Origin: Nematopogon swammerdamellus
Taxonomy: Eukaryota; Arthropoda; Insecta; Lepidoptera; Adelidae
Direction of reading: 5' to 3'
Assembly (NCBI GenBank): GCA_946902875.1
Contig: OX336348.1
Coordinates: 19,183,741 to 19,247,740 of the forward strand
Length of the DNA: 64,000 bases
Notes under the pieces: model-generated
Databases searched by the model: none
Seen by the model: the letters and a program-made list of their open reading frames with translations, nothing else
What the model was told of the DNA's origin: nothing
Program-made: the position numbers and the translations under genes
Part shown: piece after piece, positions 33,170 to 59,345 of the stretch
Layout: each line of letters starts with the position of its first letter
Position numbering within the stretch: the stretch's first letter is position 1

Positions 33170-33530
33170 CCCTCACCAGTCTACAGCCGTGATTCTTTTC
33201 GATGACACTAAACAATAGATCCGCGCGACGCCGCGACACGGCGCTGCGGGGCGCTGCGGCGCGGTGGCGCGGTGGCGTGTTGCAAGATATTTTCTAACTA
33301 AACATAAAAAATTAATATCTTTTGATTCTGTGGGTTGATTTTGATGAAATAAACTTTAAATATTACTCAGAATAAAGCTTCATATTTTTTAGTAATTAGA
33401 CTTTGAATCCAATGAGTGGTTTTTACGTGATGCGCGCACAAACGAACAAACAAACCGATAAACAACAAACCAACAAACCGACAAACCAACAAACAGGCAA
33501 ACCGACAAACAGACGAACATTTCAAAAAAT
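33170..33530. repeat. GC-rich patch and (CAAAC/CGAC)-type repeat tail
   Basis: 33223-33285 is GC-rich (GCGCTGCGGGGCGCTGCGG, GGTGGCGCGGTGGCG). 33444-33523 is a degenerate AACAAACCGACAAACC tandem. No exon evident. A (GATA)n stretch lies at 33641-33655. Confidence 0.5.
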
Positions 33531-34127
33531 ATATTTTTACGTTCTATTACTTATTCCTTCCGTCCCCCAGTTATTGTTTTGCAAAAATAGTTAATGTACA
33601 GACACGACAAGTCTACGATTTTATTATATGTATAGAAGATAGATAGATAGATAGACTATGTATTTTTATTATTTTAGAGTAAATAAACCACTCGCCTGCG
33701 TATTGCTTCTAAATTACAATTAAATAATTTTATAAATAAAACTGCATTGACGGTAATTGATTATTTTATAATAAAATGAAACCAATCTTGCACAAATGGA
33801 ATTCACATCCCTGAAAGCCTTGAAATGATATAATATCCTTTATATATTTATTACTACTGCGGTCCTTGCGGAAGACAAGTCACATCAAATATTATGAATT
33901 CTCAAATGTTTCTACGAGTCACTTTTTGCTATAAATATTTTCAGCGATCGACCTACAAGCCCCTTGGGATCGACGATCGACCGCTTGGGCACCACTGGTG
34001 TATACACTACACAATACAATCCTATACACTTGTTGCAGATCGAGTAACTCCGACAAGCGAAACCTGAAATCAGCCTCAAATACTACGATACATCCAGAAT
34101 TCACAGACGAATATAATTAAACCGGAG

Positions 34128-34141
34128 TATAAATATATAAC
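34128..34141 (+). promoter_or_regulatory. TATA-box candidate upstream of the NACHT-ankyrin gene
   Basis: GAGTATAAATATATAA lies about 200 bases before ATG 34331. CTTCAGCA near 34177 could be an initiator, but the spacing is longer than the usual 30 bases. Confidence 0.3.
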
Positions 34142-34330
34142 CACCTACAAATGCAGAGAAAACTCCCACCGGCACCTTCAGCAAAGTATTATGACAAGAT
34201 CATTATTAAGTAGCAAGAGACACAAAGATGTACACTCTAATACCTAATGCATGACTCGGTGGAGGACCGAACCCAGTCAACAGGTGCCGTATCCATAAAC
34301 TGTTAAATAAAAGAAACAACACAAATAAAA

Positions 34331-37300
34331 ATGGAATCAAGTAAACAAACTGAACATAAAAATAAACTAAATAAACAAGCACATGATACAGAATGGAACA
34401 AATTGAAAGAGTACATAAAAAATGGCGACGAAGACGGTGTTGAAATGATTCTGACAGAAAACGCAGCCTTCAACACAGCAGACAACATGAGCAGAGTTTT
34501 ACACATAGCGGTCGCAGCGAACAGAGAAAACATTGTCACTCTAGCTATCAACAAGGGGGCAGACATCAACGCCGTAGACGAGAATGGAGACTCTCCGCTT
34601 CATATTGCTGTTAGAAAAATACATTGTGCTGGATTAGTGCAACATTTTATATCATTGAATGCAAAACGTAACATTCGCAATAAAAATAATGAAACACCTT
34701 TGGATATTATAAACGAAGCATTGCGTATTGAATCAAAGCCTATTAGAAAAGAAAAAATTCTCTCGATGAAAGCTCTGTTCATAGAAGACACAGAAGAAAA
34801 ATATAAGAAAAATTATCGCCAATTGTCAAAATCTACATCGAATTCCGAATTAATGTTTGAATGTTCTAAAGGTTCTAAAGGTTTAAAAGTGAACTTGACC
34901 GGAGCTATGTTTCAAACCAAGCTTTTAATGCTTTTCGCCAAGCGTGCTATGGACAGAGGTTATAAATTCAGATTAGCGACCGAAATAGAATCTGCGGGAA
35001 AATTTGACGACGTAGTTTTGAGATATGAAGAGAACGAGACAACAGTATACAGATTTTTACAGGCGAAGCATAGAGACAACCCTTCCAGTACCATTAGGGA
35101 ATTTGATCTTTTCTCTTCGGATACGAAAGGAGATTTTAATATTGTTAAGTATTTCCTATCGTTTGTTAAAATAGTTAACAGCAAAACATATAACGACGGT
35201 GAATTAAAAGATTTTATAATTTGTACAAATACCGACCTAGAAACAAAATCAAAGGAATATTTCACTTGTAAAGACTTATTGGGAGATGCAATTTTGTATA
35301 TAAATACGTGTGCTAAGAAATATAAATTAAAATTCGAAATTGGTCAATATATAATTGCGCAAATTAAGAATATAGCTTTGGATGCCATAAGTCCAAAAGC
35401 AATTGAAGCTATGAAGAATAACAGAAATGAATTGCAGAAACAAGTTCAATTAGTAAATGAAATAAATACATTACAAAAACAAAAAAATACTACATATAGT
35501 TACTGTAACAAATTATGGCCTTTTGAAAAAATTAAGAAAGAGGGCTCAAACGCATTCGATAATTACTTGAGCTTGTTGTCGACATACAAAAAGAAAGTTA
35601 AACACGCCGTCGATGGAAAAGAAAAAACCGCGATACAAACAATTAATGATATCTTCCCGATCGATGGTGAAACGCCAAGTCACACTGATGATTTGAAAGA
35701 ATTAAAAAAAGAAGCTTGCAGCATAATCCACGAGCATAGTCAAAGGGTGAAGAACCAAAAAGCACTACTTATCGAATGTTGTATGGACGAGAGTAAAGTT
35801 GTAGTTAGGATTGATGAATTTTTAAGTAAGTTTTTCATAGTGACCAATTACGCCGGAATTGATGATTTAAACAACCAAATCAGCCATGAACTTGGCGGCG
35901 AATTCCAATTGCTAGATGCAACCCTTCTAAATGATTCCTTTGAAAAGGATATGTTCAATTGGGTGAGAAGTTATGAGGATAATAAAAGTACATACTTTTT
36001 GGGAAAAGACGGCAAAGAAATATTCAATATCTTGACATGTAAACTGAACACTTTAATGGTTAGCGGGGTCAGCAAATCCCATGTCGACAAAATTTGTAAG
36101 CACAACATCTTCTTTAAACACGATCAAGTCAAGGTGATTGATTTCATTCTGAGTGATAACAACATTCTCCACGTGACCACAGAACATCCTCGCTTGAGTG
36201 CTCTAAAGATTATTCAGACGTTAGAAAGAAATGAAACGTACAAAAGACTAGATAGCGTTATATTTACTAGCGTTGAAACATTTCTGCTCACAGAAATGTA
36301 CAAACGCATGATAAATGCATTCTCCTCTGACTCCAGTCACCATATTCTAGTAATAGAATGCCAACAAGAATCGCTGGAACATTTCGACTACAATCACTTA
36401 TGCTCCGCGATAAATACAGTTCTCAACAACAATGAAAATAAAAAACTCATCCTTATAGCGCGTCGTGAGCACTTTGTAGTTGAAAAATTTAAATCAAGCA
36501 ATTACTCCCAGGTGTTTGATAAAATTAGGTTTAAAGATCTGAAAGAGGAATCACGAAAGGCAATTCTCAATAAAGATGTAACTTTTCAAGAAAACCGAGG
36601 AACATCTGAAAATAAAATACAATTAAAAGATTTGATTAATGAAGATTCAGCGGACGACATCATCGACGAGGAAATGTTATGGTGGCTTATAGAAAACAAC
36701 AACATTAGAGTGGGCGATGGAAGAGCTTTTTATTCCAGAGGATACAATGAAGAATATAACATTAAAAGATCATTACAACGTCAAATAGTCGATTTAAAAA
36801 TCCAACCCGATTGGTTATCATGTTTAATTTTCATAACGGGTACGAAAAATAATTTAAAAAGGCTTTATTCTTCCCAGAGACTTGGCAAAGCGAATTGTGA
36901 ATGGTGGCACAACGAAATGCCCTTTCTAAGTCAAGTAATGTTTGATTGTGCTTCGCCCGAAGTTAAGATTATTTTGTCACCAAATAAAGACAAAAATATA
37001 ATCCACAGACATAGGTTTGAAAATATTTGTGGAAAGTTTCCCTGCGTTCAGTGGCTAGAGTATGCAGGAGGTGGATTCTTTTTGTGGCGAGATTTCAAAT
37101 ATTCGACTAAGTATTTAGATGAATATGATTATCTAGTAACATATAACATGAAGTTGCTCAATATTAATAAACGGAAAGCGTCACCATACATACGAATAAA
37201 TAACATGTTTATCCCTGAAGCGCTTGAGGAAAAAATAATAATTGTAGCGAACGATCCTGGAGAAGGCAAGTCTACCATGCTGACTGGTTTGTCGTACGAT

Positions 37301-38478
37301 TTGAAGAAAAGATTTCCGCATTCGTGGATCGTTCGGATAAATTTAACAGACCATGCCGTCGACGGTGATCCGTCAACTGGATTGAAAAATATTGAAATCG
37401 AAGATAACGATAAAGAAAAGGGGATAGACATTGTCGCAAAAATGATAGTTCGCGGCGACCCAGATGATGTTCAGGTGAAGTTTCAAAGAGAAACAATTAA
37501 GGCTACCTTGGACGGAAGAGCCAAAATAAGACTTATAATAATGTTTGATGGCTTTGATGAAATTTCTCCCAACTACAAAAGTAAGACTTGTATCCTACTA
37601 AGAGTAATTAAAGATACTAACGTTAGTCAACTCTGGGTTACGACTCGAGTACATCTGAAAACTTATTTGGAAAATGCGCTTCAAACGCCGGCTTATATGA
37701 TGATTGCCCTAACTCGTGAGGAGCAAGCGAACTATTTAAACCATTACTGGAAGTGGAATTTGAAGTTTTACAATGATGATCCGTGTAATGAAACAACTAC
37801 AACTGGGATACTAGACTTGCTTAAGAATTTCCAAGAGTCAATTTCCCAATGTATCGAAGAACGAAGAAACGAACCATACTTTTTACATAATAGAAACAAT
37901 AGAAAAACTAATCTTGAAGAGCTTCTTTTCAAAATAAATTCTATAATAAAATATCCTGATGCGACGCTTTCCACATTACAGACAAAGGTGTACGGGTTAA
38001 ACTTTTCGACTTATGCAGAAATTGTACTGGATGTTGTGTCGGAATTATATTACAGTAATCACAAAGTTGTGGATATAGTACAATATAGGGATAGTTTCAC
38101 AGCTGTTCCGCTAAATCTCAATATGATAGCCGAGAGCATGTTCAAACGTAAATTACAAATTCCTAAGAGTACTGGGATGTACAGTCTATACAGGGAGTTT
38201 GTGTTGGACAAGTTCGAAATATACCAACGAAAAAATGTCAGCATCAACGACAGCAGCATCGTTGTTAAAGAGCAAGGTAAAAGAGAGATCAGAACACTGC
38301 AAAGAGTACATCGTGAGTTGGCCTTGAAATTGTTATGCCCCGTATTCTCCAAGAAAAACATTATGCCGGAAACGAGCGAGTTGGCTCAGTACACAGATGA
38401 AGAATGGACGAGAATCGGACTCGTGCGACACGAGTTAGGTCTTGAGTTCGTCCATCGCACATACGCTGAATACTTTTT
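34331..38478 (+). CDS. N-terminal part: ankyrin, putative nuclease and NACHT domains
   Basis: ATG 34331 opens 1382 residues before the insertion. Residues about 55-150 hold two to three ankyrin repeats (VLHIAVAANRENIVTLAI, GADINAVDENGDSPLHIAV). Residues about 195-330 have the pattern GAMFQ...RGYKFRLATEIESAGKFDDVVL...FLQAKHR...FIICTNTD: E218, D226/D227 and Q244-x-K246 fit a PD-(D/E)xK nuclease, as in Cap4/DUF4297 effectors. Residues 350-960 are helical with no motif I recognise. NACHT: Walker A 973-982 (ANDPGEGKST), Walker B DGFDE at 1073-1077, sensor-like WVTTR, then VPLNLNMIAE and FVHRTYAEYF of the winged helix. The last 27 codons of the open frame as read (to 38560) are foldback-element sequence, not gene. 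Confidence 0.85.
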
Positions 38479-38912
38479 ACCCGACTATGGCAGAGCCAAA
38501 AAGGAGGGTAATGTGGTTGGCAGTCTATGTGGCTGGGTATGTACGGATGTTCCACCGTAACTGCTAAACTACTCATTCGATTTTGATGATCGTGGTGTCA
38601 ATCGATTTGTTATGATGGTCCCCTTGTTATGGGGTACCAAATTTTTCCATAAATAAAAAATGGCGGCCGTGGGACCCCATATTGTCACACTTTAAAAACA
38701 TATTTTCTTCAAACCCCACCGAGTGGGGTATCATTGTCAAGAGCTTCTAAAGGCGATTTCAAAAATATAAGACACTTAATGGTTTAAACCAAAATGAATG
38801 AAATAAAAAATTATAAGCCCAACCGTGGTTCGGATTGCACGTAAAACTGTAGGTCCCTTCAGATTCAGATTCAGATATTTATTTTGCCATATTTATTATT
38901 CCCTTCTTACCT

Positions 38913-40320
38913 TATAGGATAGGATAGGATAGGATAGGATAGGATAGGATAGGATAGGATAGGATAGGATAGGATAGGATAGGATAGGATAGGATAGGAT
39001 AGGATAGGATAGGATAGGATAGGATAGGATAGGATAGGATAGGATAGGATAGGATAGGATAGGATAGGATAGGATAGGATAGGATAGGATAGGATAGGAT
39101 AGGATAGGATAGGATAGGATAGGATAGGATAGGATAGGATAGGATAGGATAGGATAGGATAGGATAGGATAGGATAGGATAGGATAGGATAGGATAGGAT
39201 AGGATAGGATAGGATAGGATAGGATAGGATAGGATAGGATAGGATAGGATAGGATAGGATAGGATAGGATAGGATAGGATAGGATAGGATAGGATAGGAT
39301 AGGATAGGATAGGATAGGATAGGATAGGATAGGATAGGATAGGATAGGATAGGATAGGATAGGATAGGATAGGATAGGATAGGATAGGATAGGATAGGAT
39401 AGGATAGGATAGGATAGGATAGGATAGGATAGGATAGGATAGGATAGGATAGGATAGGATAGGATAGGATAGGATAGGATAGGATAGGATAGGATAGGAT
39501 AGGATAGGATAGGATAGGATAGGATAGGATAGGATAGGATAGGATAGGATAGGATAGGATAGGATAGGATAGGATAGGATAGGATAGGATAGGATAGGAT
39601 AGGATAGGATAGGATAGGATAGGATAGGATAGGATAGGATCGGATCGGATCGGATCGGATCGGATCGGATCGGATCGGATCGGATCGGATCGGATCGGAT
39701 CGGATCGGATCGGATCGGATCGGATCGGATCGGATCGGATCGGATCGGATCGGATCGGATCGGATCGGATCGGATCGGATCGGATCGGATCGGATCGGAT
39801 CGGATCGGATCGGATCGGATCGGATCGGATCGGATCGGATCGGATCGGATCGGATCGGATCGGATCGGATCGGATCGGATCGGATCGGATCGGATCGGAT
39901 CGGATCGGATCGGATCGGATCGGATCGGATCGGATCGGATCGGATCGGATAGGATAGGATAGGATAGGATAGGATAGGATAGGATAGGATAGGATAGGAT
40001 AGGATAGGATAGGATAGGATAGGATAGGATAGGATAGGATAGGATAGGATAGGATAGGATAGGATAGGATAGGATAGGATAGGATAGGATAGGATAGGAT
40101 AGGATAGGATAGGATAGGATAGGATAGGATAGGATAGGATAGGATAGGATAGGATAGGATAGGATAGGATAGGATAGGATAGGATAGGATAGGATAGGAT
40201 AGGATAGGATAGGATAGGATAGGATAGGATAGGATAGGATAGGATAGGATAGGATAGGATAGGATAGGATAGGATAGGATAGGATAGGATAGGATAGGAT
40301 AGGATAGGATAGAATAGGAT
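38913..40320. repeat. 1.4-kb pentanucleotide array with a pure GGATC block
   Basis: About 280 pentamers: GGATA to 39640, then about 62 consecutive GGATC units (39641-39950), then GGATA again. Hardly any unit deviates within a block. The GGATC block has a GATC site every 5 bases. Confidence 0.97.
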
Positions 40321-43300
40321 AAAGTCTTTGAGAAGGTTTATCGTCTTCTTGAACGCAGCTCGGCCTTCGGCCTCGCCCATAGTTACTTACTGTCTTCGAG
40401 AAGGTTATTTGTCTACCTGAACGCAGCTCGGCTTTTGGCCTCGCCCATAGTTACTTACTGCCTTCGAGAAGGTTTATCGACTTCCTGAACGCAGCTCGGC
40501 CTTCGGCCTCGCCCATAGTTACTTACTGTCTTCGAGAAGGTACGCAGCTCGGCCTTCGGCCTCACCCATAGTTACTTACTGTCTTCGAGAAGGTCATTTG
40601 TCTACCGGAACGCAGCTCGGCCTTCGGCCTCGCCTATAGTTACTTACTGTCTTCGAGAAGGTTTATCGACTTCCTGAACGCAGCTCGGCCTTCGGCCTCG
40701 CTCATAGTTACTTACTGTCTTCGAGCAGGTTTATCGTCTTCCTGAACGCAGCTCGGCCTTCGGCCTCGCCCATAGTTACTTACTGTCTTCGAGAAGGTTA
40801 TTTGTCTACCTGAACGCAGCTCGGCTTTTGGCCTCGCCCATAGTTACTTACTGCCTTCGAGAAGGTTTATCGACTTCCTGAACGCAGCTCGGCCTTCGGC
40901 CTCGCCCATAGTTACTTACTGTCTTCAAGAAGATTTATCGTCTTCTTGAACGCAGCTCGGCCTTCGGCCTCACCCATAGTTACTTACTGTCTTCGAGAAG
41001 GTCATTTGTCTACCTGAACGCAGCTCGGCCTTCGGCCTCGCCTATAGTTATTTACTGTCTTCGAGAAGGTTTATCGACTTCCTGAACGCAGCTCGGCCTT
41101 CGGCCTCGCTCATAGTTACTTACTGTCTTCGAGCAGGTTTATCGTCTTCCTGAACGCAGCTCGGCCTTCGGCTCGCCCATAGTTACTTACTGTCTTCGAG
41201 AAGGTTATTTGTCTACCTGAACGCAGCTCGGCTTTTGGCCTCGCCCATAGTTACTTACTGCCTTCGAGAAGGTTAATCGACTTCCTGAACGCAGCTCGGC
41301 CTTCGGCCTCGCCCATAGTTACTTACTGTCTTCAAGAAGGTTTATCGTCTTCTTGAACGCAGCTCGGCCTTCGGCCTCACCCATAGTTACTTACTGTCTT
41401 CGAGAAGGTTATTTGTCTACCTGAACGCAGCTCGGCCTTCGGCCTCGCCCATAGTTACTTACTGTCTTCGAGCAGGTTTATCGTCTTCCTGAACGCAGCT
41501 CGGCCTTCGGCCTCGCCCATAGTTACTTCCTGTCTTCGAGAAGGTTTATCGTCTTCTTGAACGCAGCTCGGCCTTCGGCCTTGCCCATAGTTACTTACTC
41601 TCTTCGAGAAGGTTTATCGTCTTCCTGAACGCAGCTCGGCCTTCGGCCTCACCCATAGTTACTTACTGTCTTCGAGAAGGTTTATCGTCTTCCTGAACGC
41701 AGCTCGGCCTTCGGCCTCGCCCATAGTTACTTACTGTCTTCGAGAAGGTTTATGGTCTTCTTGAACGCAGCTCGGCCTTCGGCCTCGCCCATGGTTACTT
41801 ACTGTCTTCGAGAAGGTTATTCGTCTTCCTGAACGCAGCTCGGCCTTCGGCCTCGCCCATAGTTACTTACTGTCTTCGAGAAGGTTTATCGTCTTCCTGA
41901 ACGCAGCTCGGCCTTCGGCCTCGTCCATAGTTACTTACTGTCTTCGAGAAGGTTTATCGTCTTCCTGAACTGTCTTCGAGCAGGTTTATCGTCTTCCTGA
42001 ACGCAGCTCGGCCTTCGGCCTCGCCCATAGTTACTTACTGTCTTCGAGAAGGTTATTTGTCTACCTGAACGCAGCTCGGCTTTTGGCCTCGCCCATAGTT
42101 ACTTACTGCCTTCGAGAAGGTTTATCGACTTCCTGAACGCAGCTCGGCCTTCGGCCTCGCCCATAGTTACTTACTGTCTTCAAGAAGGTTTATCGTCTTC
42201 TTGAACGCAGCTCGGCCTTCGGCCTCACCCATAGTTACTTACTGTCTTCGAGAAGGTTTATCGTCTTCCTGAACGCAGCTCGGCCTTCGGCCTCGCCCAT
42301 AGTTACTTACTGTCTTCGAGAAGGTTTATGGTCTTCTTGAACGCAGCTCGGCCTTCGGCCTCGCCCATGGTTACTTACTGTCTTCGAGAAGGTTATTCGT
42401 CTTCCTGAACGCAGCTCGGCCTTCGGCCTCGCCCATAGTTACTTACTGTCTTCGAGAAGGTTTATCGTCTTCCTGAACGCAGCTCGGCCTTCGGCCTCGT
42501 CCATAGTTACTTACTGTCTTCGAGAAGGTTTATCGTCTTCCTGAACTGTCTTCGAGCAGGTTTATCGTCTTCCTGAACGCAGCTCGGCCTTCGGCCTCGC
42601 CCATAGTTACTTACTGTCTTCGAGAAGGTTATTTGTCTACCTGAACGCAGCTCGGCTTTTGGCCTCGCCCATAGTTACTTACTGCCTTCGAGAAGGTTTA
42701 TCGACTTCCTGAACGCAGCTCGGCCTTCGGCCTCGCCCATAGTTACTTACTGTCTTCAAGAAGGTTTATCGTCTTCTTGAACGCAGCTCGGCCTTCGGCC
42801 TCACCCATAGTTACTTACTGTCTTCGAGAAGGTTATTTGTCTACCTGAACGCAGCTCGGCCTTCGGCCTCGCCCATAGTTACTTACTGTCTTCGAGCAGG
42901 TTTATCGTCTTCCTGAACGCAGCTCGGCCTTCGGCCTCGCCCATAGTTACTTACTGTCTTCGAGAAGGTTTATCGTCTTCTTGAACGCAGCTCGGCCTTC
43001 GGCCTCGCCCATAGTTACTTACTCTCTTCGAGAAGGTTTATCGTCTTCCTGAACGCAGCTCGGCCTTCGGCCTCACCCATAGTTACTTACTGTCTTCGAG
43101 AAGGTTTATCGTCTTCCTGAACGCAGCTCGGCCTTCGGCCTCGCCCATAGTTACTTACTGTCTTCGAGAAGGTTTATGGTCTTCTTGAACGCAGCTCGGC
43201 CTTCGGCCTCGCCCATGGTTACTTACTGTCTTCGAGAAGGTTATTCGTCTTCCTGAACGCAGCTCGGCCTTCGGCCTCGCCCATAGTTACTTACTGTCTT

Positions 43301-44505
43301 CGAGAAGGTTTATCGTCTTCCTGAACGCAGCTCGGCCTTCGGCCTCGTCCATAGTTACTTACTGTCTTCGAGAAGGTTTATCGTCTTCGTGAACTGTCTT
43401 CGAGCAGGTTTATCGTCTTCCTGAACGCAGCTCGGCCTTCGGCCTCGCCCATAGTTACTTACTGTCTTCGAGAAGGTTATTTGTCTACCTGAACGCAGCT
43501 CGGCTTTTGGCCTCGCCCATAGTTACTTACTGCCTTCGAGAAGGTTTATCGACTTCCTGAACGCAGCTCGGCCTTCGGCCTCGCCCATAGTTACTTACTG
43601 TCTTCAAGAAGGTTTATCGTCTTCTTGAACGCAGCTCGGCCTTCGGCCTCACCCATAGTTACTTACTGTCTTCGAGAAGGTTATTTGTCTACCTGAACGC
43701 AGCTCGGCCTTCGGCCTCGCCCATAGTTACTTACTGTCTTCGAGCAGGTTTATCGTCTTCCTGAACGCAGCTCGGCCTTCGGCCTCGCCCATAGTTACTT
43801 ACTGTCTTCGAGAAGGTTTATCGTCTTCTTGAACGCAGCTCGGCCTTCGGCCTCGCCCATAGTTACTTACTCTCTTCGAGAAGGTTTATCGTCTTCCTGA
43901 ACGCAGCTCGGCCTTCGGCCTCACCCATAGTTACTTACTGTCTTCGAGAAGGTTTATCGTCTTCCTGAACGCAGCTCGGCCTTCGGCCTCGCCCATAGTT
44001 ACTTACTGTCTTCAAGAAGGTTTATCGTCTTCTTGAACGCAGCTCGGCCTTCGGCCTCGCCCATGGTTACTTACTGTCTTCGAGAAGGTTATTCGTCTTC
44101 CTGAACGCAGCTCGGCCTTCGGCCTCGCCCATAGTTACTGTCTTCGAGAAGGTTTATCGTCTTCCTGAACGCAGCTCGGCCTTCGGCCTCGTCCATAGTT
44201 ACTTACTGTCTTCGAGAAGGTTTATCGTCTTCCTGAACGCAGCTCGGCCTTCGGCCTCGCCCATAGTTACTTACTGTCTTCGAGAAGGTTTTTCGTCTTC
44301 CTGAACGCAGCTCGGCCTTCGACCTCGCCCATAGTTACTTACTGTCTTCGAGAAGTTTATTCGTCTTCCTGAACGCAGCTCGGCCTTCGGCCTCACCGAT
44401 AGTTACTTACTGTCTTCGAGAAGGTTTATGGTATTCTTAACCGCAGCTCGGCCTTCGGCCTCGCCCTCAGTTACTTACTTATTCGAGAAGTTTTATTTAT
44501 GTAAT
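40321..44505. repeat. 4.2-kb 68-bp minisatellite of copy 2, about 61 units with higher-order structure
   Basis: Same unit as copy 1. Multi-unit blocks recur: the fused junction CTGAACTGTCTTCGAGCAGG, made by a partial unit, appears near 41967, 42540 and 43390, each time with the same unit order around it. This shows amplification by unequal exchange of multi-unit segments. Confidence 0.93.
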
Positions 44506-44527
44506 ATTACTAAAAAGAATGAAATAA

Positions 44528-45540
44528 AAAATAAAGTTTAAAAAACTGTAACCCGACTATGGAAAAAAGTAACTATTATTAAAAAAACTAAAAAAGTTTC
44601 AAAACCTTTACCATAAATAAAATAAACTAAAAAGTAAGAAACAAGATATTTGGGAGCCATTGCAGTGCTTCCTTCGGACGTTGCTATCATCGTCTTATTG
44701 GGTAAGAGCAGTCTTTTGATTTTCCTGTTTATTTAGTTTTATTGAAGTCTTCTGGCAGTTTCACATTAATAACGTTATAATTAAATTGAAATGCCGTAGT
44801 CGTGCGTTGTCAGCTATAAAAAAAAATTATCTACTTAACTTTAAATATACGAAAATACTTTTCTTTAGGTTTCCGTATCCCGTACGGATTATATTTAATA
44901 TTATATTTAAGCCTACGCCGTCTGTCTGTCTGTCTGTCCGTCCGTCTGTCTGTCCTACTGCTGTATCTTTGGAACCGTAATAGGTAGACAGTTGAAATTT
45001 TTACAGAATTATGTGTTATTTACCTACTACTACTGAGTAACTCTAATGAATAAATGAAAGGTTATAGGATTATATTATTGTGGCCGATTGCTGTTGTATG
45101 AGTCGAGGCAAAATATTATCTTTACCTCCCTCCCTCATTCCCTCTTCCCCTCCATCACTCCTTCACTCCCTCACTCCCTCTCTTCCCCTTCCTCAGCGTG
45201 ATCACAAAATTAACAACGAGATGCCGTCAATCAAGCATAATTTTTTTTATAGCTGACAACGCACGACTACGGCATTTCAATTTAATTATAACGTTATTAA
45301 TGTGAAACTGCCAGAAGACTTCAATAAAACTAAATAAACAGGAAAATCAAAAGACTGCTCTTACCCAATAAGACGATGATAGCAACGTCCGAAGGAAGCA
45401 CTGCAATGGCTCCCAAATATCTTGTTTCTTACTTTTTAGTTTATTTTATTTATGGTAAAGGTTTTGAAACTTTTTTAGTTTTTTTAATAATAGTTACTTT
45501 TTTCCATAGTCGGGTTACAGTTTTTTAAACTTTATTTTTT
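44528..45540. repeat. Foldback module of copy 2: two about 295-bp inverted arms and a 420-bp spacer
   Basis: Left arm (AAATAAAGTTTAAAAAACTG ... GTTGTCAGCTATAAAAA) is the near-exact reverse complement of 45247-45540. The spacer contains ATCCCGTACGGATTATATTT, (GTCT)n and a CT-rich patch. Confidence 0.88.
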
Positions 45541-48500
45541 TTGAGTGAATATTTATTTTGGAATTTTAACAATGAAAATGTTCAGAAGCAATTATTGTAT
45601 AAAATATGTGTCAGTAATGACTATCGTGTAGTGAGACTCTTTTTAAATACATTATTACTATCTGATGATAAATCGAATACAATAAAGGGAATGAGGATAT
45701 TGCAGCACAATTACCGACACGGTTCCGTAAATCCGCTCTTCGTAGCAGTGCGGGAAAGGATTTTAGGTTTCATGAAGTTCGTTCTTAATATTTTTGGAGT
45801 TGACTGTAACATATTATTTGAGAACGGCATATCAATCTTAAGCAATATACATGACGCTGAAACAATGAACACACTTTTAGACTATTCAGAAAAAAATACG
45901 GAACTGTTCAACCAGCTACTCTTTTCGAAAAGCTCACCTGCGCTACACTTGACACGTAATAAGGAAGTAGCCCAGACTCTGCTGGAACGGACCAGCAAGA
46001 ATCCCAGTTTATTTAGAAAAGTTATACTTTGCATCGATGACGAAGGCAGGTCAGTGCTGCATCTTCAGAATGATGCAGTAACCATAAAAACTATACTAGA
46101 GATGGTGCAGTACGATGAAGAACTGCTCGAGGACTTGGTTAATCTCAGAGACAAAGAAGGAAAAACAGCCTTACATACGGCGGAAACGAAAGAAAATATT
46201 GAAGTAGCCCATGAACTCTTGAAATGCATAAAAAATCCAGATTTGTATAGACAAATTACACAAAGCGTTGACGCGCACGGTAAGTTCGAATTATGTAAAC
46301 ATGTAATGCTAAACACAGTATTAGAAATGGTACAATCTGAAGAGTTATTTCAAGATTTACTACTTGACAAGGACAATGAAAAAAGTACTATGATACACGT
46401 GGAGATGTTGCAGAGACAGAAAAATATAGACAAATACATCTCAGAATTCATGAGCAAAAATAACATTTTGCTGGAACAAATTGTACAAAGTGTTGATGAG
46501 AACGGCGAGTTCGCATTAAGTTATATAACTAGTGTAGAGATGTATAAAAGTATTCTAACATTTGTGCAATGCGAAAAAAACCTGTATAAACGTTTGCTGC
46601 TTATAAGGGACAACGAAGGAGAAACAGTGCTGCGCACAGTGCGTAAGAAATATGTAGCGCAAGCGCTTCTACTGGAACGTATACGCACAGTGAAGAACAC
46701 AATTTCAATGAAAGAAGTGGTCCGATTTGCCGATGAACTCGGTAAATCTGCATTGCGTAACTTAACTAATGCCGAAATTATAAAAACTATACTAGAGATT
46801 GTGAATTCTGTTGAACACTTTTTGGGTAAATTGTTATTTCTTAGTGACAAGAACGGACAAACAGTGCTACACAAAGTTATACAATATGAAACAGTAGCAG
46901 ATGCGCTGTTAGAAACCACCAAATCCAATGTCAATATATTTAAAAAAATTATACATAGCTTCGATAAGAATGGCAAGTCCGTCTTACATTACGCATCTAA
47001 AGAAGAAATTGTAAAAACAATATTAGAAATGACGAAAATTAACGACGACTTGTTTAAAGAATTACTACGTTTTAGGTACAATGAAGACAACACTGCGTTA
47101 CACCTGGCGGTGTGCGCTACAAATGAAGAGGCAGTCCAAAATATGTTGAAATATATCACGAAGGATTCCAATTGGTTCAAACAAATTATACTGAGCGTTG
47201 ACGCGCACGGTAAATCAGCATTACATAATGTAACAAATGGCCAAATATTAAAAATAATACTAGAACATGTGCAATCACATGTAGACCTGTTAGAGAATTT
47301 GTTGCTTCTCAAAGACAATAAAGGGAAAACAGCGTTAATACACTTAGCTAAACGAAATACAAAAGTAGCGCACCAACTCTTGAAATACTGTAAAAATAAT
47401 GAAAATGTGTTTAAACAAATTATGGTAAGCGTAGATAACCCAGGCAAATCCGCCTTGTGTTACGTTACCAATTTCGAAATTTTAATAAGCATGGTAGAAA
47501 TAATGCAAACTCATGATGGTATGTTTGAACATTTGATGCTTCTCAAGGACGTTTGGGGAAGAACAGCACTACATACAGCGATTTACAATAATCAAACTGG
47601 AGTAGCTAATGTTTTGTTGCAAACTATCAAAAGTAATTCAGATTTATTTAAAAAAATCATACTTAGCGTTGACGCGCACGGTAGATCAGCATTACATAAT
47701 GTAACAAATGGCGAAATATTAAAAATAATACTAGAACATGTACAATCACATGTAGACCTGTTAGAGAATTTGTTGCTTCTTAAAGACAATAAAGGAAAAA
47801 CAGCGCTAATACACTTAGCTATACGAAATACAAAAGTAGCGCACCAACTTTTGAAATACTTTAAAAATAATGAAAATGTGTTTAAACAAATTATGTTAAG
47901 CGTCGATAATCGGGGAAAATCCGCCTTATGTTACGTTACCAATTTGGAAATTTTAATGAGCATGGTAGAAATAATGCAAACTCATGATGGTATGTTTGAA
48001 CATTTGATGCTTCTCAAGGACATTTGTGGAAGAACAGCACTACATACAGCGATTTGCAATAATCAAACTGGAGTAGCCAATATTTTGTTGCAAACTATCA
48101 AAAATAATTCAGATTTATTAAAAAAAATTGTACTTAGCGTTGATGTGCGATGTACATCTATATTACATGACGCAACTAATGAGAAACTTGTAAAAATAAT
48201 ACTAGAATACGTGCGGTCTGATGAAGAATTGTTTGAAAAGTTGTTGCTTCGCAAAGATCAACATGGGAGACCAGCACTACATTCAGCGATTTGGCATAAT
48301 CAAACTGGAGTAGCTAATATTTTGTTGCAAACTATCAAAAATACGAGTAATTTATATTTATTTAAAACAATTATACTTAGCGTTGATGTGCATTGTAAAT
48401 CTATATTACATTACGCAACTAATGAGGAACTTGTAAAAATAATACTAGAATACGTGCGGTCTGATGAAGAATTGTTTGAAAAGTTGTTGCTTCTCAAAGA

Positions 48501-49017
48501 TCAAGAAGGGAGAACAACACTACATACAGCGATTTGCAATAATCAAACTGGAGTAGCTAATATTTTGTTGCAAACTATCAAAAATACGAGTAATTTATAT
48601 TTATTTAAAACAATTATACTTAGCGTTGATGTGTTTTGTGAATCTATATTACATGACGCAACTAATGAGGAACTTGTAAAAATAATACTTGTAAAAATAA
48701 TACTAGAATACGTGCGGTCTGATGAAGAATGGTTTGAAAAGTTGTTGCTTCTCAAAGATCAAGAAGGGAGAACAGCACTACATACAGCGATTTGCAATAA
48801 TCAAACTGGAGTAGCTAATATTTTGTTGCAAGCTATCAAAAATAATTCAGATTTATTTAAAACAATTATACTTAGCGTTGATGTGTATTGTGAATCTATA
48901 TTACATGACGCAACTAATGAGGAACTTGTAAAAATAATACTAGAATACGTGCGGTCTGATGAAGAATTGTTTGAAAAGTTGTTGCTTCTCAAAGAACGAA
49001 AAAAAGCGATTTATTAA
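45541..49017 (+). CDS. C-terminal ankyrin-like repeat array of the NACHT protein
   Basis: An open frame of 1158 codons continues the NACHT gene (the first codon is internal, not a start). It consists of about 14 double repeats of roughly 75-85 residues with alternating half-motifs: LLLLKDNKGKTALH..I…VA..LL..IK…LF and KIILSVD.HGKSALH.VTN.EILKIILE. These are divergent ankyrin-type helix pairs (G-x-T/S-A-L-H signature). The last four units (from about 48000) are nearly identical at DNA level, with start spacings 243, 258 and 237 bases, all multiples of three. One unit has an internal 15-base duplication (CTTGTAAAAATAATA). A fast-expanding array suits a ligand-sensing role. Confidence 0.8.
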   Translation: MSEYLFWNFNNENVQKQLLYKICVSNDYRVVRLFLNTLLLSDDKSNTIKGMRILQHNYRHGSVNPLFVAVRERILGFMKFVLNIFGVDCNILFENGISILSNIHDAETMNTLLDYSEKNTELFNQLLFSKSSPALHLTRNKEVAQTLLERTSKNPSLFRKVILCIDDEGRSVLHLQNDAVTIKTILEMVQYDEELLEDLVNLRDKEGKTALHTAETKENIEVAHELLKCIKNPDLYRQITQSVDAHGKFELCKHVMLNTVLEMVQSEELFQDLLLDKDNEKSTMIHVEMLQRQKNIDKYISEFMSKNNILLEQIVQSVDENGEFALSYITSVEMYKSILTFVQCEKNLYKRLLLIRDNEGETVLRTVRKKYVAQALLLERIRTVKNTISMKEVVRFADELGKSALRNLTNAEIIKTILEIVNSVEHFLGKLLFLSDKNGQTVLHKVIQYETVADALLETTKSNVNIFKKIIHSFDKNGKSVLHYASKEEIVKTILEMTKINDDLFKELLRFRYNEDNTALHLAVCATNEEAVQNMLKYITKDSNWFKQIILSVDAHGKSALHNVTNGQILKIILEHVQSHVDLLENLLLLKDNKGKTALIHLAKRNTKVAHQLLKYCKNNENVFKQIMVSVDNPGKSALCYVTNFEILISMVEIMQTHDGMFEHLMLLKDVWGRTALHTAIYNNQTGVANVLLQTIKSNSDLFKKIILSVDAHGRSALHNVTNGEILKIILEHVQSHVDLLENLLLLKDNKGKTALIHLAIRNTKVAHQLLKYFKNNENVFKQIMLSVDNRGKSALCYVTNLEILMSMVEIMQTHDGMFEHLMLLKDICGRTALHTAICNNQTGVANILLQTIKNNSDLLKKIVLSVDVRCTSILHDATNEKLVKIILEYVRSDEELFEKLLLRKDQHGRPALHSAIWHNQTGVANILLQTIKNTSNLYLFKTIILSVDVHCKSILHYATNEELVKIILEYVRSDEELFEKLLLLKDQEGRTTLHTAICNNQTGVANILLQTIKNTSNLYLFKTIILSVDVFCESILHDATNEELVKIILVKIILEYVRSDEEWFEKLLLLKDQEGRTALHTAICNNQTGVANILLQAIKNNSDLFKTIILSVDVYCESILHDATNEELVKIILEYVRSDEELFEKLLLLKERKKAIY

Positions 49018-49062
49018 AAAAAATTATACCAGAACAACAAATTATAACAGACCACATGCTCT

Positions 49063-49647
49063 GTGATACAGACAGTACTTAATATGATACAATGTGACAA
49101 ATTGTTAGAGAAATTGTTGCTACTGAGGAACATTAGTGGAAGAGCAGGGGTACATGTAGCGATGTCTTTACCACCGATATGTCAACAGGCCGTGTTTGTG
49201 CGTGCCAAAAATAATCCGGAGTTGTTAAAAAATATTCTATTTTGTGCCGATGAAAGTGGAAAATGCGCTTTGCATTATGTTCGTTCAGGGACAGCAATAA
49301 AAACAATACTAGATATGGTGAAACACGATGAAGGTCTGTTAGAGCAAGTGTTGCTTCTCAAGGACAACAAGGGAAGAACCGCGTTACATGCGGCGATGCG
49401 TAAAAAAGAAAGATACGAGATATTAAAATGCATTAAGGATTGCATTAAGGACAATCAAGATTTATTTAAAAAAATTATACTTAGTGTTGATATGAACGGA
49501 AAATCTCCTTTGCATTATTTAAATATCGTCGTTATACAAAAAGTACTAGATCTGTTGAAACACGATGAAGGTCTTTTAGAGCAAGTGTTACTTCTCAAGG
49601 ACAACAAGGGAAGAACACCGCTAGTATTGGCAAACCACAATTGTTGA
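49063..49647 (+). pseudogene. Terminal ankyrin-like units after a lesion
   Basis: After the stop at 49015-49017 (…KERKKAIY) a new frame carries on the same repeat: LLLRNISGRAGVH, CADESGKCALHYV, LLLKDNKGRTALHAAM, NGKSPLHYL and LLLKDNKGRTPLVL, ending at TGA 49645-49647. The 45-base gap holds IIPEQQ-like remnants, so a deletion in the A-rich run AAAAAAA near 49000 probably caused the break. AATAAA near 49838 may serve as the poly(A) signal. Confidence 0.7.
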
Positions 49648-49824
49648 ATCAATTTTAAGAAACTTAATGCCAAGTTCTTGTCCAATTTTGCTGCGGAGGT
49701 ACACCGCACATAATGTAATTTGATTGCTGTGAGTTTTTTGTTGATCCAAAGAAATATGACATTAGTTTGTCTTAAACTAAAAAAAAAACAAAAATTAAAC
49801 TAGTTTTTAAAATATTATTAATTT

Positions 49825-49962
49825 AATGCTTCGAAGAATAAAAATAAATGTTTCATCATTGTTTTATTTTCATTTACACAATAGAAAAAAATGTTACATA
49901 CCTGTACAGTACAAATGTACTGTATTCATAATTTGAGTAGGCAAGTTATTATTATACAACTA
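49825..49962 (+). repeat. Uninterrupted copy of the 25140/27648 repeat (empty site)
   Basis: TTTAATGCTTCGAAGAATAA to CACAATAGAAAAAAATG, then TGTATTCATAA and GAGTAGGCAAGTTATTATTA. The corresponding copy at 25140-27692 carries 2.4 kb of inserted elements between the same two halves. Confidence 0.65.
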
Positions 49963-49964
49963 GC

Positions 49965-50350
49965 TGTGCCCACGACTACGTCCGCGTGGACTTGAACTTT
50001 CTCAGCCTGTTATAATTATAAATCGCAAAGTGACTCCGTCTGTACGTTCGTTGGTATGATTCAATTGATATTCGACCTACATAAGGCAAGCCTTAACCAA
50101 TGCTAATTTATAATCTACAATAACGCTTCTCTGTAAACTATATTAGAAGTAGAATTTCCAGGAATGTGTGAAATAAATATATTTCATTTCATTTCAGTTC
50201 ATTTAATTTCATTTCATATAAATTATTTGAATTACTAATAAGGCAAAGAGCCACGTATAGCTGACCGTGCGAAAAGCAACTCAAACTTAGATCTAAGCCT
50301 GCTACCGAACCAATGACTGTGACCAATCAGTAAGTCACAACCTCAGCCTT
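49965..50350 (-). mobile_element. Helitron fragment, second copy
   Basis: Matches 2237-2640 (CTAGCTGTGCCCACGACTACG, GAGCCACGTATAGCTGACCG). On the minus strand it still shows the AGLDLSLSCFSHGQLYVAL helicase motif, then loses the frame. A (ATTTC)n retroelement-like tail interrupts it at about 50165-50218. Confidence 0.6.
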
Positions 50351-53634: not shown

Positions 53635-53835
53635 TGATTACAATTCTTTCTTAAGACTATATGGTGTATACAAATAATTTCTTAAAAACAATGATTACAT
53701 TTTTTCTTAAGACTAGATGATGTATACAAATCAACAATTTCTTAAAAACTATGATTAAAATTTATCTTAAGACTAGATGTTGTATATAATTCAATAATTT
53801 CTTATAAACTATGATTCTTAAGACTGTATACAAAT
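53635..53835. repeat. About 60-bp tandem repeat next to the 3' end of polB
   Basis: Four degenerate units with AACTATGATTA, TTTCTTAAGACTA and TGTATACAAAT. The array ends where the polymerase stop codon begins, so it lies in the polymerase 3' flank and possibly in the terminal region of the Maverick. Confidence 0.65.
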
Positions 53836-56800
53836 CATTGTGTACTGCGTAGTTTATAATGCCCCCAAGCAAGTGTGGAATTATCCGAATTAATTTTTCG
53901 TTTATCATCTCGACCGCACAATACAAATTTGCGTTTTGTTTGTGTGTATAGTTGATGTTTAATACTTTTAATGGTGTGCATTGTACCAATCGTTTTGTTT
54001 TCTCCCTTTAAACACTTTTTATAAGTTTCGATGTCATAATGTTTGGATATAGATTTCGTTACACCCTTTACTTTTTTAACAGTAGTCGAGTTTTGTATTT
54101 TGTACGCATACATTTTTGATCGTAGTCCTACAAATTCCGAGATAATTTTACCGCTACATTCATCCTTCATCAACCCCACAATTTTTTTATTGACTAGCGG
54201 TACCCCGTAGACATTGTCCGCGGGGTAATCGGACGTATCGAAGCGGTGCAGATCGAGTTTTATATCGGTAAAAAAATCATCGGTTTTTACGTCATAAATG
54301 AAGGAATCTGTATCCGTATAGAGTAATCGCACATTGTCTCCATATTTCGGCTTCATGTAATCATAGTGGAATTCATACATTACCACCTTAGATAGCTCTA
54401 GCACTGAGAATCCCACATAGATGGGTTTATCATAGCAAATCTCAGTCTTATTCATTTGTACGGCGATAAAATTTTCTGAGAAAATGGTACGACTGTGGAA
54501 ATTCGGTCTGGCTATTAATCTTTGTGCACCGACTTTTGTGTTAGTCCTAGTAGGTATATCAAACCAATGATTAACCAGTTTAACATCTAATCTCCTATTT
54601 ACATCTTCGATAGTTTTTCCAAAAATAGCATTGTTCATCAGCTTATAGAAGTCCTTCTCAAAGGCGTTATGGGCGTTGGTACGCATTACCGTATTTAAAT
54701 CAATGTAAGATTTTAACCATTTGCATTGTTCGAATGCCAATATTCTATGCACCTTCTTTAAAACTAACCCATGCGCTATGCATTGTTTTAAATTAACATA
54801 ATGAATGATATAATTAATCTTGTCATCTAGTGTTGTCATGAGTTTTTTATCTTTACCGTAGGGGGGAGTCTTTTTCTCACAACAGAATGGGTAATCATTA
54901 TGAGCATCGTGTAGCTGGTGGGGGTATTCTATGTCGACCTCCAGAAAGTAGCCCGTGCTAGACTCTTCACTCACCGCCGCTATGTCAAACGTTTCAACTT
55001 CGTTATCGGACAACCAATGAAAACCCCTATTGGTAAAGTCTGACTCATGGCGTGACCATAGAGATTATTAATGTCTAAATATTCTATAAAATTAGATGCA
55101 ATTTCCGGATTATAACCATCTATATACTTGTTATTTGCTTTACAATACCTATTTGAGGCCATAGAAATACCGCCGCGAACGCCAGAGTTTATAAATTGTA
55201 TCACGTTTATATCCTTCAATATTTCCAAAGATACATTCGTGTACTTGAGCATCGCATCCCAGGTTAGAGATGGTGCAGTCAAATAGTGACACGCATCTAA
55301 TTTATATGTTTTTTTACACACGTTTCGGAAATTTTCAAAGACGTCAGCGAGTATAAGAACGTCTGTTTTGAGATAGATGTCACTATACTCACCCAAAGTC
55401 TTTAAATTAAAGTGTTGCCATATGCTTTGTGCGTATAGATAATCTTCATCGCTTATATATGTATCTGTGAGAGAGCTATAAAAACTTTGTTGGGGTGGCA
55501 GACACGTCTCTTCGAGTTTTTGTATGCAATCAATATATTCATAGGGGAATACACCTTTTCGGAGTAATAGGTGACTGTCAGATTGTGAGGTGAAATGATT
55601 ATGCATTATTTGAAATTGATCGGCCCGCAAATTCGAGGCCAACTTTTCCAGACTGCTAGACATAAACTTGAAAGTATCTAAAAATCTCAAAGTTACAGTT
55701 TTGTTTTGAGCGCCATCTATTGAAATGCGATAATTAAAAGAGATGTATTTTTCTTTGTTTTGTGCTATGCACTCTAAATTATATCCAGCGTCGGACAGCT
55801 CCCTTATGAAGAGGTGGCTGTCGTAGCCGGATAGATTGTGAAACATTACAGGAATGAAGGGTTTAATTCTATAATTGAGATTGCACAAATAGTGTGCTGC
55901 CCCAACGTATGCACCTGTCAGGTGACAGTGATCGCGAACTCTATCGTCGCGTGTAAACAAACTGCCACAGATGTGACAGTGTGTAGATAACCTAAACTCC
56001 TCTTCCTCTTTTAAAGAAATATTAATTTCTTTTACGATATGTAGAATACGTCCAATTTCGAGCGCGTCACTATTCAACGCTGCAATGAATTTTTCCACAC
56101 AATCACTACATCTATACGTCACGAATTTACATAGACTCTCATCGTATTTACAGTGAATGTAATACCCAAAGCTGTAGGGTATATGTTTTTGAATTGAATT
56201 CGTGTACGAAGCTTCCGGATTCGGTTGACAGGTGCCTAGGGGTGAAAGAATAGATTCGAAGTCCGCATATATTACGAAAGGCACATCGAGCTGCCGGTAG
56301 TGATTTTTGAAACGGATCTCGAAATCTTTCGACATCATTACGCTTTTTTTAATACACCCCATTTCGCAGTGATGATTATAAGCTTCAATCTTATTAAAAC
56401 GTAGTAAACACCCATCACAAATGTGAATACGCCTCCGTCCTTTGATAACATCAGCCCTTATGAGACGAGACAAATTTTTTATCCAACAATAATGACTCAC
56501 GCCCTGCCCATTTTCAAAGTAGAGAAGGTTAACGTGTGGTGTTGTTTTATTATCGGTGATTAATAGAGGTTCTACTCGTGAATCTTTACCGAAACCGTAC
56601 ACATTTATACTGAGCTTATTAAGTTTTTCGAATTTTTTTATATCCGACATCGAGATGGGAAATGATAAACCTTTGAGATTTAAAACGTTGCTATAATGCG
56701 GATATGAACTCACACGATCATTACTCACAGAAGTGGGGTGGAGTGCGGATACAACCGCCCACGCAAAACATGCATTATCTTTATTCTTAACGTTTATGAC

Positions 56801-57502
56801 GGCTTTTTTAGCCTGTATTTTTTTAGGCAGGGGAATATAACTTTTGCCGTAGACAGGTATATGTTTATTAATGTTAATTTCGAGAAAATCTATATGTTGC
56901 AATGACCACCCACTATCCCTCTCCTGGAAGACCTCACATTTCTCTTTGATATTTTGAGCAAAACCTGAGTAAACGTCTTCTATGTTGCAACCAATATCAA
57001 TAACTTGATTTTTTGTGTTAAATGATTTAACCTCCACGTGAGCTTCATCCTTTTTAATTATTACCCGACTATGGCAGAGCCAAAAAGGAGGGTAATGTGG
57101 TTGGCAGTCTATGTGGCTGGGTATGTACGGATGTTCCACCGTAACTGCTAAACTACTCATTCGATTTTGATGATCGTGGTGTCAATCGATTTGTTATGAT
57201 GGTCCCCTTGTCATGGGGTACCAAATTTTTCCATAAATAAAAAATGGCGGCCGTGGGACCCCATATTGTCACACTTTACAAAAATATTTTCTTCAAACCC
57301 CACCGAGTGGGGTATCATTGTCAAGGGTATCCTTCTAAAGGCGATTTCAAAAATATAAGACACTTAATGGTTTAAACCAAAATGAATGAAATAAAAAATT
57401 ATAAGCCCAACCGTGGTTCGGATTCCACGTAAAACTGTAGGTCCCTTCAGATTCAAATTCAGATATTTCTTTTGCCATATTTATTATTCCCGTCTTACCT
57501 TA

Positions 57503-58040
57503 TAGGATAGGATAGGATAGGATAGGATAGGTGAGGATAGGATAGGATAGGATAGGATAGGATAGGATAGGATAGGATATGATAGGATAGCATAGCATAG
57601 CATAGCATAGGATAGGATAGGATAGGATAGGATAGGATAGGATAGGATAGGATGGGATGGGATGGGATGGGATGGGATGGGATGGGATGGGATGGGATGG
57701 GATGGGATGGGATGGGATGGGATGGGATGGGATGGGATGGGATGGGATGGGATGGGATGGGATGGGATAGGATAGCATAGCATAGCATAGCATAGCATAG
57801 CATAGCATAGCATAGCATAGCATAGCATAGCATAGCATAGCATAGCATAGGATAGGATAGGATAGGATAGGATAGGATAGGATAGGATAGGATAGGATAG
57901 GATAGGATAGGATAGGATAGGATAGGATACGATAGGATAGGATAGGATAGGATAGGATAGGATAGGATAGGATAGGATAGGATAGGATAGGATAGGGTAG
58001 GATAGGATAGGATAGGATAGGATAGGATAGAATAGGATAA
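57503..58040. repeat. Pentanucleotide array of copy 3 with GGATG and GCATA blocks
   Basis: Order: GGATA, short GCATA (57589-57610), GGATA, about 24 GGATG units (57651-57768), GCATA (57773-57848), GGATA. A few singletons (GGTGA, CGATA, GGGTA) are present. Confidence 0.95.
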
Positions 58041-59345
58041 AGTCTTCGAGAAGGTTTATCGTCTTCTTGAACGCAGCTCGGCCTTCGGCCTCGCCCATAG
58101 TTACTTACTGTCTTCGAGAAGGTTATTTGTCTACCTGAACGCAGCTCGGCTTTTGGCCTCGCCCATAGTTACTTACTGCCTTCGAGAAGGTTTATCGACT
58201 TCCTGAACGCAGCTCGGCCTTCGGCCTCGCTCATAGTTACTTACTGTCTTCGAGCAGGTTTATCGTCTTCCTGGACGCAGCTCGGCCTTCGGCCTCGCCC
58301 ATAGTTACTTACTGTCTTCGAGAAGGTTATTTGTCTACCTGAACGCAGCTCGGCATTTGGCCTCGCCCATAGTTACTTACTGCCTTCGAGAAGGTTTATC
58401 GACTTCCTGAACGCAGCTCGGCCTTCGGCCTCGCCCATAGTTACTTACTGTCTTAAAGAAGGTTTATCGTCTACTTGAACGCAGCTCGGCCTTCGGCCTC
58501 ACCCATAGTTACTTACTGTCTTCGAGAAGGTTATTTGTCTACCGGAACGTAGCTCGGCCTTCGGCCTAGCCCATAGTTACTTACTCTCTTCGAGCAGGTT
58601 TATCGTCTTCCTGAACGCAGCTCGGCCTTCGGCCTCGCCCATAGTTACTTACTGTCTTCGAGAAGGTTATTCGTCTTCCTGAACGCAGCTCGGCCTTCGG
58701 CCTCGACCATAGTTAATTACTGTCTTCGAGAAGGTTTATCGACTTCCTGAACGCAGCTCGGCCTTCGGCCTCGCCCATAGTTACTTACTGTCTTCGAGAA
58801 GGTTTATCGTATTCTTGAACGCAGCTCGGCCTTCGGCCTCGCCCATAGTTACTTACTCTCTTCGAGAAGGTTTATCGTCTTCCTGAACGCAGCTCGGCCT
58901 TCGGCCTCACCCATAGTTACTTACTGTCTTCGAGAAGGTTTATCGTCTTCCTGAACGCAGCTCGGCCTTCGGCCTCGCCCATAGTTACTTACTGTCTTCG
59001 AGAACGTTTGTCGTCTTCTTGAACGCAGCTCGGCCTTCGGCCTCGCCCATAGTTACTTACTGTCTTCGAGAAGGTTTATCGTCTTCTTGAACGCAGCTCG
59101 GCCTTCGGCCTCGCCCATGGTTACTTACTGTCTTCGAGAAGGTTTATCGTCTTCCTGAACGCAGCTCGGCCTTCGGCCTCGCCCACAGTTACTTACTCTC
59201 TTCGAGAAGGTTATTCGTCTTCCTGAACGCAGCTCGGCCTTCGGCCTCACCCATAGTTACTTACTGTCTTCGAGAAGGTTTATGGTATTCTTAACCGCAG
59301 CTCGGCCTTCGGCCTCGCCCTCAGTTACTTACTTATTCGAGGAGT
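58041..59345. repeat. 68-bp minisatellite of copy 3, about 19 units
   Basis: Same unit and similar variant order as in copies 1 and 2, with private changes (CTGGACGCAGC, GGCATTTGGCC). Confidence 0.92.

Follow-up and report, generated by a model that had tools for sequence, protein, structure and literature searches.

The question raised by this locus is whether an insect genome encodes receptors in which a nuclease of bacterial defence type is fused to a NACHT switch and a repeat sensor. To our knowledge, insects are usually described as being without NLR-type receptors, and we know of no NLRs in Drosophila. The window, the 64,000-bp stretch of Nematopogon swammerdamellus DNA analysed here, lies on a 22.4-Mb contig (C16) of a 699-Mb genome. 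An earlier note described positions 34331..49017 as one NACHT gene, and the features that it named are present: ankyrin repeats, E218, D226-D227 and Q244xK246, Walker A, DGFDE, and more than 1100 residues of repeats are found in two open reading frames (ORFs), 34331-38560 (+; 1409 aa) and 45529-49014 (1162 aa). The gene is nevertheless not continuous over this interval; an element at 38479-45537 and a stop at 49015-49017 divide it, and the frame runs on to 49647.

34331..38478 (+): 5' coding portion (residues 1 to about 1382) of the nuclease-NACHT gene, upstream of the interruption; 97% identity with the paralogue L033 up to 38478
34415..34729 (+): N-terminal ankyrin repeats (residues 29-133); Ank_2 E 6.8e-9 (29-111), ankyrin model match 24-133
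34886..36046 (+): predicted Cap4/DUF4297-type PD-(D/E)xK domain (residues 186-572, part of which is an insert modelled at low confidence; motif core 180-312)
36095..36712 (+): AAA-like domain without Walker A, i.e. no P-loop (residues 589-794)
37208..37768 (+): NACHT NTPase core (residues 960-1146)
37247-37276 (+): Walker A, ANDPGEGKST (residues 973-982)
37547-37561 (+): DGFDE (residues 1073-1077)
38441..38473 (+): conserved end motif LEFVHRTYAEY downstream of NACHT (residues 1371-1381), in a region that we take to be a winged helix
38479..45537 (unstranded): repetitive element of 7,059 bp, inserted between the two parts of the gene; contains an ATAGG array as well as a 68-bp satellite
45538..49014 (+): C-terminal ankyrin-like repeats, the presumed sensor, from the ORF, Pfam Ank_2 and alignment to L033
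48996..49046 (+): segment unlike the intact paralogue L033, with the in-frame stop at 49015-49017
49048..49647 (+): final repeats, which match the end of L033 at 98% identity

The order of domains is thus ankyrin repeats, PD-(D/E)xK, P-loop-less AAA-like domain, NACHT with Walker motifs, and long ankyrin-like repeats (11 Ank_2 stretches in the 1162-aa ORF by Pfam search). The NTPase has Walker A and B motifs, and its PF05729 match (E 0.017) is under the cut-off of that model. The Pfam matches of the window protein include neither a death-fold domain nor LRRs; they include ankyrin repeats instead.

L033, a 94%-identical paralogue 84 kb away, is a single uninterrupted ORF of 2455 codons and is the intact paralogue with the same domain order that the earlier note had led us to look for. 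Because L033 is continuous there and the window sequence is a repeated element, the reading of 38560-45529 as an intron is rejected. The left end of the element occurs again at 20713 and 57064, and the final 28 residues of the 1409-aa ORF are element sequence; the gene-derived coding part ends at 38478. The window as a whole is rich in repeats. The window copy is therefore a family member interrupted by a mobile element, not an intact gene; if expressed, it would yield a product without the sensor.

A Cap4/DUF4297-type PD-(D/E)xK fold had been expected in residues 190-340, and its presence is well supported by profile comparison and by a predicted model. The profile of the window domain matches that of bacterial Cap4 (hhalign 93.6%, P 2e-7), with the best of 60 shuffles far lower. 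The best VIA-align rows for the model are HerA-DUF4297, LmuA, Cap4, and Avs3, followed by NOD2/NLRP3; absence from VIA-align or Foldseek results is not counted as evidence. The motifs are GAMFQ (from 191), LATE (215-218), KFDD (224-227), and FLQAKH (242-247), giving the putative catalytic residues E218, D226, D227, Q244, and K246 in the E / D / QxK order of Cap4 (PF14130). These positions are near-invariant, being kept in 68 to 70 of 70 non-redundant representatives, and are likewise conserved in paralogues from the same genome; the earlier note had named absence of the fold, or loss of E218/D226/K246 among paralogues, as outcomes that would count against it, and neither was seen. A motif pattern drawn up after the sequence was seen is matched by 3 of 5000 shuffled versions of the protein and by all 26 own-genome ORFs examined, the window ORF included. 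None of 31 members is listed by the PF14130 Pfam model at E<=1, which leaves the family below the Pfam cut-off for Cap4; a PF14130 profile search of the genome gave no matches, and its control also matched nowhere. The nuclease is one of the most constrained segments in a dN/dS comparison of paralogues.

This genome has an expanded set of family members, most with long open frames: 37 merged units lie on 10 contigs, 35 with open frames of 1,311-4,054 codons, and 19 of the 37 are on one contig (C32, 13.0 Mb); the copies are long, dispersed, and without introns in the searched part. Divergent pairs have dN/dS of 0.18-0.38, and divergent copies are under purifying selection. In a tree that took in 18 of the 37 units, these 18 rows form one expansion (support 100) nested in a 28-row clade whose named members are beetles, with no named bacterium.

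We lean, by a narrow measure, towards an insect gene family of effector-STAND-sensor type, for which immunity, DNA cleavage, and sensing are the functions that the architecture suggests. The repeats would bind an invader ligand or a damage signal; NACHT would exchange nucleotide and oligomerise; and the nuclease domains, thereby gathered, would cut double-stranded DNA, such that infection is ended or the cell is killed. Somewhat more tentatively, arthropods may possess an expanded class of intracellular receptors of their own, each with a Cap4/Avs-type DNase built into the protein and triggered by the NACHT switch. Such suicide receptors would act on DNA themselves, needing neither adaptor nor caspase, and would have been retained and diversified in insects, with exchange between arthropods and their Rickettsiales.

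Relatives of named origin belong to insects, a spider, an isopod, and a rotifer, as well as to bacterial symbionts; related proteins are present in several arthropod orders, and the bacterial ones are from Wolbachia, Candidatus Mesenet, a Midichloriaceae, and a gammaproteobacterial MAG. A protein search with residues 150-1150 of L035, a paralogue on contig C23, gave two matches, one from Wolbachia of Kerria lacca. Capture from bacteria, suggested earlier as one alternative, does not follow from these sequences, because the bacterial relatives are symbionts or MAGs scattered among arthropod sequences in trees. A tblastn search of phages and plasmids with one Wolbachia nuclease segment (from P0066) found no match, and none of 60 stretches in a viral_contigs scan was confirmed. 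Phage matches to the whole of P0066 fell in ankyrin regions. Identity of the nuclease with the N-terminal domain of gwv_1093 of phage WO (published alignment 137 aa) is rejected, as gwv_1093 has no HMM match. Kinship between NACHT proteins of prophage WO and arthropods, with ankyrin repeats and a latrotoxin C-terminal domain, has been described (PMC5062602, main text), and the word nuclease does not occur in that main text. Some relatives (e.g. P0020, P0053) carry this latrotoxin domain (PF15658), from which it appears that the NACHT proteins of that main text belong to the present nuclease-NACHT family. Neither the nuclease nor the family is described in the literature searched; PMC12465672 was set aside, as in the passages concerned 'NACHT' begins an author's name.

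Such relatives, the latrotoxin domain, and the concentration of 19 of 37 units on C32 are what would be seen if nuclease-NACHT modules shuttled between arthropods and Rickettsiales as toxins or toxin-antidote drivers instead of serving host immunity; we consider this unlikely, given the single expansion within a clade lacking a named bacterium and dN/dS well below 1 in divergent pairs. Some PD-(D/E)xK proteins are inactive, and the fold might be kept here to bind nucleic acid as a regulator, not to cut it; the near-invariant catalytic positions, within this genome and beyond, and the strong constraint on the nuclease make this improbable. There is also little probability that the intron-free, dispersed copies spread as transposon cargo without host function, as the long ORFs on 10 contigs and the repeat-rich window might imply, for divergent pairs remain constrained, several arthropod orders have related proteins, and the window element interrupts the gene instead of carrying it. 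That the window copy is merely a dead pseudogene of no further interest is very improbable: the insertion and in-frame stop make this likely for its full length but not for the family, and about 1,380 codons remain open in its 5' part, with zero amino-acid changes relative to L033 in nuclease core and NACHT (Nd 0 in both).

With the effector-STAND-sensor reading, some three dozen giant genes suggest an animal equivalent of the alarms that bacteria raise against viruses. If this is true, insects have a direct counterpart of Avs, a large constrained family with a bacterial-defence nuclease fused to a NACHT switch; STAND-driven DNA cleavage becomes testable in animals, and the movement of genes between arthropods and symbionts of the Wolbachia type becomes a question to ask.

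In Avs (AVAST) systems, a TPR-type sensor recognises phage terminase or portal. The Avs/NLR-like architecture proposed earlier stands in part: L033 has a nuclease effector, STAND NTPase, and C-terminal repeats whole in one chain, with sensing presumed, but the order differs from that of Avs3/Avs4, with ankyrin repeats before the nuclease as well as in the presumed sensor, and an extra P-loop-less AAA-like domain between nuclease and NACHT. The repeats match ankyrin models, not the TPR type, and these are animal genes, not prokaryotic defence genes. In Cap4 of CBASS (PF14130/DUF4297), the nuclease precedes SAVED, a sensor of cyclic oligonucleotides, whereas here it precedes NACHT and ankyrin repeats, and its sequence is below Pfam detection. 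Lamassu LmuA, whose partner is LmuB, and HerA-DUF4297 pair a nuclease with separate proteins; in the present family, nuclease and NACHT are fused in one chain. Animal NLRs (NOD2, NLRP3) share the NACHT NTPase with Walker A/B and differ in the death-fold and LRR domains, lacking among the Pfam matches here, where the N-terminal effector is a nuclease. With the phage WO and arthropod NACHT proteins, as presented in the main text of PMC5062602, the family shares NACHT, ankyrin repeats, and, in some relatives, a latrotoxin C-terminal domain.

The gene that begins at 34331 is a broken member of a larger family. Its first open reading frame (34307-38560, +; 1409 residues counted from the ATG at 34331) begins with ankyrin repeats (Pfam). 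The earlier note had proposed an N-terminal nuclease ahead of a NACHT domain, and the residues it named are present at those positions: E218, D226-D227, Q244 and K246 for the putative nuclease, and Walker A (973-982) and DGFDE (1073-1077) for NACHT. In this frame Pfam places NACHT below threshold (PF05729, E 0.017; 15.4 bits vs a cut-off of 26.7); the downstream frame at 45529-49014 contains 11 Ank_2 stretches. The nuclease has no consistent Pfam family among 31 members, the most frequent match being an unrelated family (3 members, E 0.018), and the sole PADLOC match of the full-length window protein is an ankyrin model. Support for the predicted order of domains comes close to the most that sequence and structure prediction can give.

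Features of the window include the following.

10197-13931, +: non-LTR retrotransposon open reading frame with endonuclease, reverse transcriptase and RNase H domains
38479-45537: insert, from alignment to the paralogue L033 and recurrence of its left end in the window
49015-49017: in-frame stop, in a stretch differing from L033
51366-52818: minisatellite (32-bp unit, about 45 copies), open in several frames
53835-57181, -: two large open reading frames, no Pfam matches at E<=0.001

By eye, a motif in the first of the two minus-strand frames resembles that of a Maverick/Polinton-type polymerase, with no database matches.

The nearest paralogue, L033 (C16:19132930-19141929), is a single 2455-codon open reading frame. 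Window positions 33341-38478 and 45538-47808 align to it at 97% and 94%, and these blocks are contiguous in L033, with a 5-base overlap; the 7,059 bp separating them in the window are the insert. A further block (49047-50296) aligns at 98%, past rearranged repeats. The final 28 residues of the 1409-residue frame match an element copy at 20707 at 100%. The insert includes an ATAGG array and a 68-bp satellite, and its right end carries a perfect inverted repeat of 300 nt (44526-44825 / 45241-45540). Its left end is also found at 20713 and 57064; with the copy at 57064-60497, the window holds the left end of this repetitive element three times and the right end twice. The in-frame stop is a second lesion. 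Window and L033 have no amino-acid differences in the nuclease core or in NACHT (Nd 0 in both), and segment 313-640 carries nine replacement changes and one silent change.

In the moth's own genome (699 Mb, 39 contigs) the window lies at C16:19183741-19247740. One protein search of this genome returned 55 rows, whose open frames span 591-4054 codons; 52 have no internal stops. Merging rows less than 1,000 bp apart on one strand leaves at least 37 units: 19 on C32, nine on C16, two on C33 and one each on seven further contigs. Of these units, 35 sit in frames of at least 1,311 codons; the two on C33 are short. C32 is a 13.0-Mb contig that might be a sex chromosome; three of its genes recur at a distance of about 120-124 kb (11.680/11.699/11.714 and 11.804/11.820/11.835 Mb), a repeat that may be an assembly duplicate. 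At C16:5253179-5261461 (-; loci L010, L011, L014 and L015), two tandem nuclease-NACHT units share a single 4054-codon frame. In a 74-row tree 18 own-genome sequences form one side of a branch with support 100, nested in a clade of 28 rows that also holds Diabrotica and Cylas.

Residues 135-1409 as query gave 12 proteins, and a seven-member profile gave 109. The nuclease-domain HMM matched 100 of 122 proteins at E<1e-10; the other 22 comprise two window pieces, two proteins with NACHT only (P0014 and P0096) and 18 proteins with neither domain. Many Wolbachia matches, and that of the ant Wasmannia, have NB-ARC in place of NACHT (precomputed Pfam). In 70 representatives below 80% identity, a set picked by similarity and thus biased toward conservation, 68 have E218, 69 have D226, and all have D227, Q244 and K246. 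A more independent view comes from 26 own-genome frames, all of which keep the nuclease motif pattern. They take in a second clade weakly scored or missed by the first HMM; the window copy, near-duplicate pairs and L009, which is disrupted, are counted among them. An OTU-type domain occurs in some relatives (PF02338 in P0030, P0088 and the Wolbachia protein P0061; P0009 and P0010 by eye), N-terminal and ahead of the nuclease in those inspected.

Nei-Gojobori dN/dS was calculated for 19 non-independent pairs picked by hand. Overall values are 0.18-0.38 in the 12 pairs with dS >0.25, and those of the nuclease 0.06-0.29 in 11 of these; seven very close pairs (0.19-0.94) have few changes and are little informative.

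Named sources include beetles (Diabrotica, Hypothenemus, Onthophagus, Cylas), flies (Contarinia, Pseudolycoriella, Bradysia, Ochlerotatus), Rhynocoris, Diploptera, Wasmannia, the spider Nephila, the isopod Armadillidium and the rotifer Brachionus, with Wolbachia and a gammaproteobacterial MAG among bacteria. When 84,980 species of bacteria and archaea were scanned with a pattern, the only matches were Candidatus Mesenet longicola and a Midichloriaceae MAG. Wolbachia was absent from the result, which shows that this pattern overlooks members. By eye, a single 1076-aa frame of Mesenet holds the nuclease, then a P-loop region and then ankyrin-like repeats, and on the Midichloriaceae contig the nuclease-bearing frame adjoins a P-loop frame. 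The five bacterial rows require four changes in each quick tree (43 and 41 rows without label), about as for shuffled labels, and starred branches force two; for the second tree, which does not contain Mesenet, 12 rows that were long or near-duplicates were removed, as was the duplicate row of the window.

Among the matches listed by full-text searches of a library with few subscription papers or preprints, no title or abstract describes a nuclease-NACHT family in arthropods. The nearest report describes NACHT proteins common to prophage WO and arthropods, and the word "nuclease" is absent from its main text (PMC5062602). The interest lies in the family, not the broken window copy; by homology, the chance that it acts through an immune mechanism may be put at about even.

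The nuclease was also compared with those of bacterial defence. REase effectors are listed for bacterial conflict systems in PMC8195603. The 31-sequence profile has only two matches among PDB sequences, both Cap4 (E 0.048 and 0.29), with motifs in register. Seven of the 31 members match an endonuclease-effector model of PADLOC (best E 1.4e-7), and the window's own segment does so at just E 0.0043. Against nine Cap4-type N-termini from plasmid records (seven SAVED-annotated, one hypothetical, one unannotated), the hhalign probability is 93.6, with P 2.1e-7 across 121 columns. This comparison scores 51.7; none of 60 column shuffles exceeds 23.3, and the scores are 10.3 for the reversed profile and 12.4 for NACHT. 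All nine of these Cap4-type sequences share G, Q, E, FDD and QxK in their alignment, yet the narrow spacing of the family's motif pattern fits four of them.
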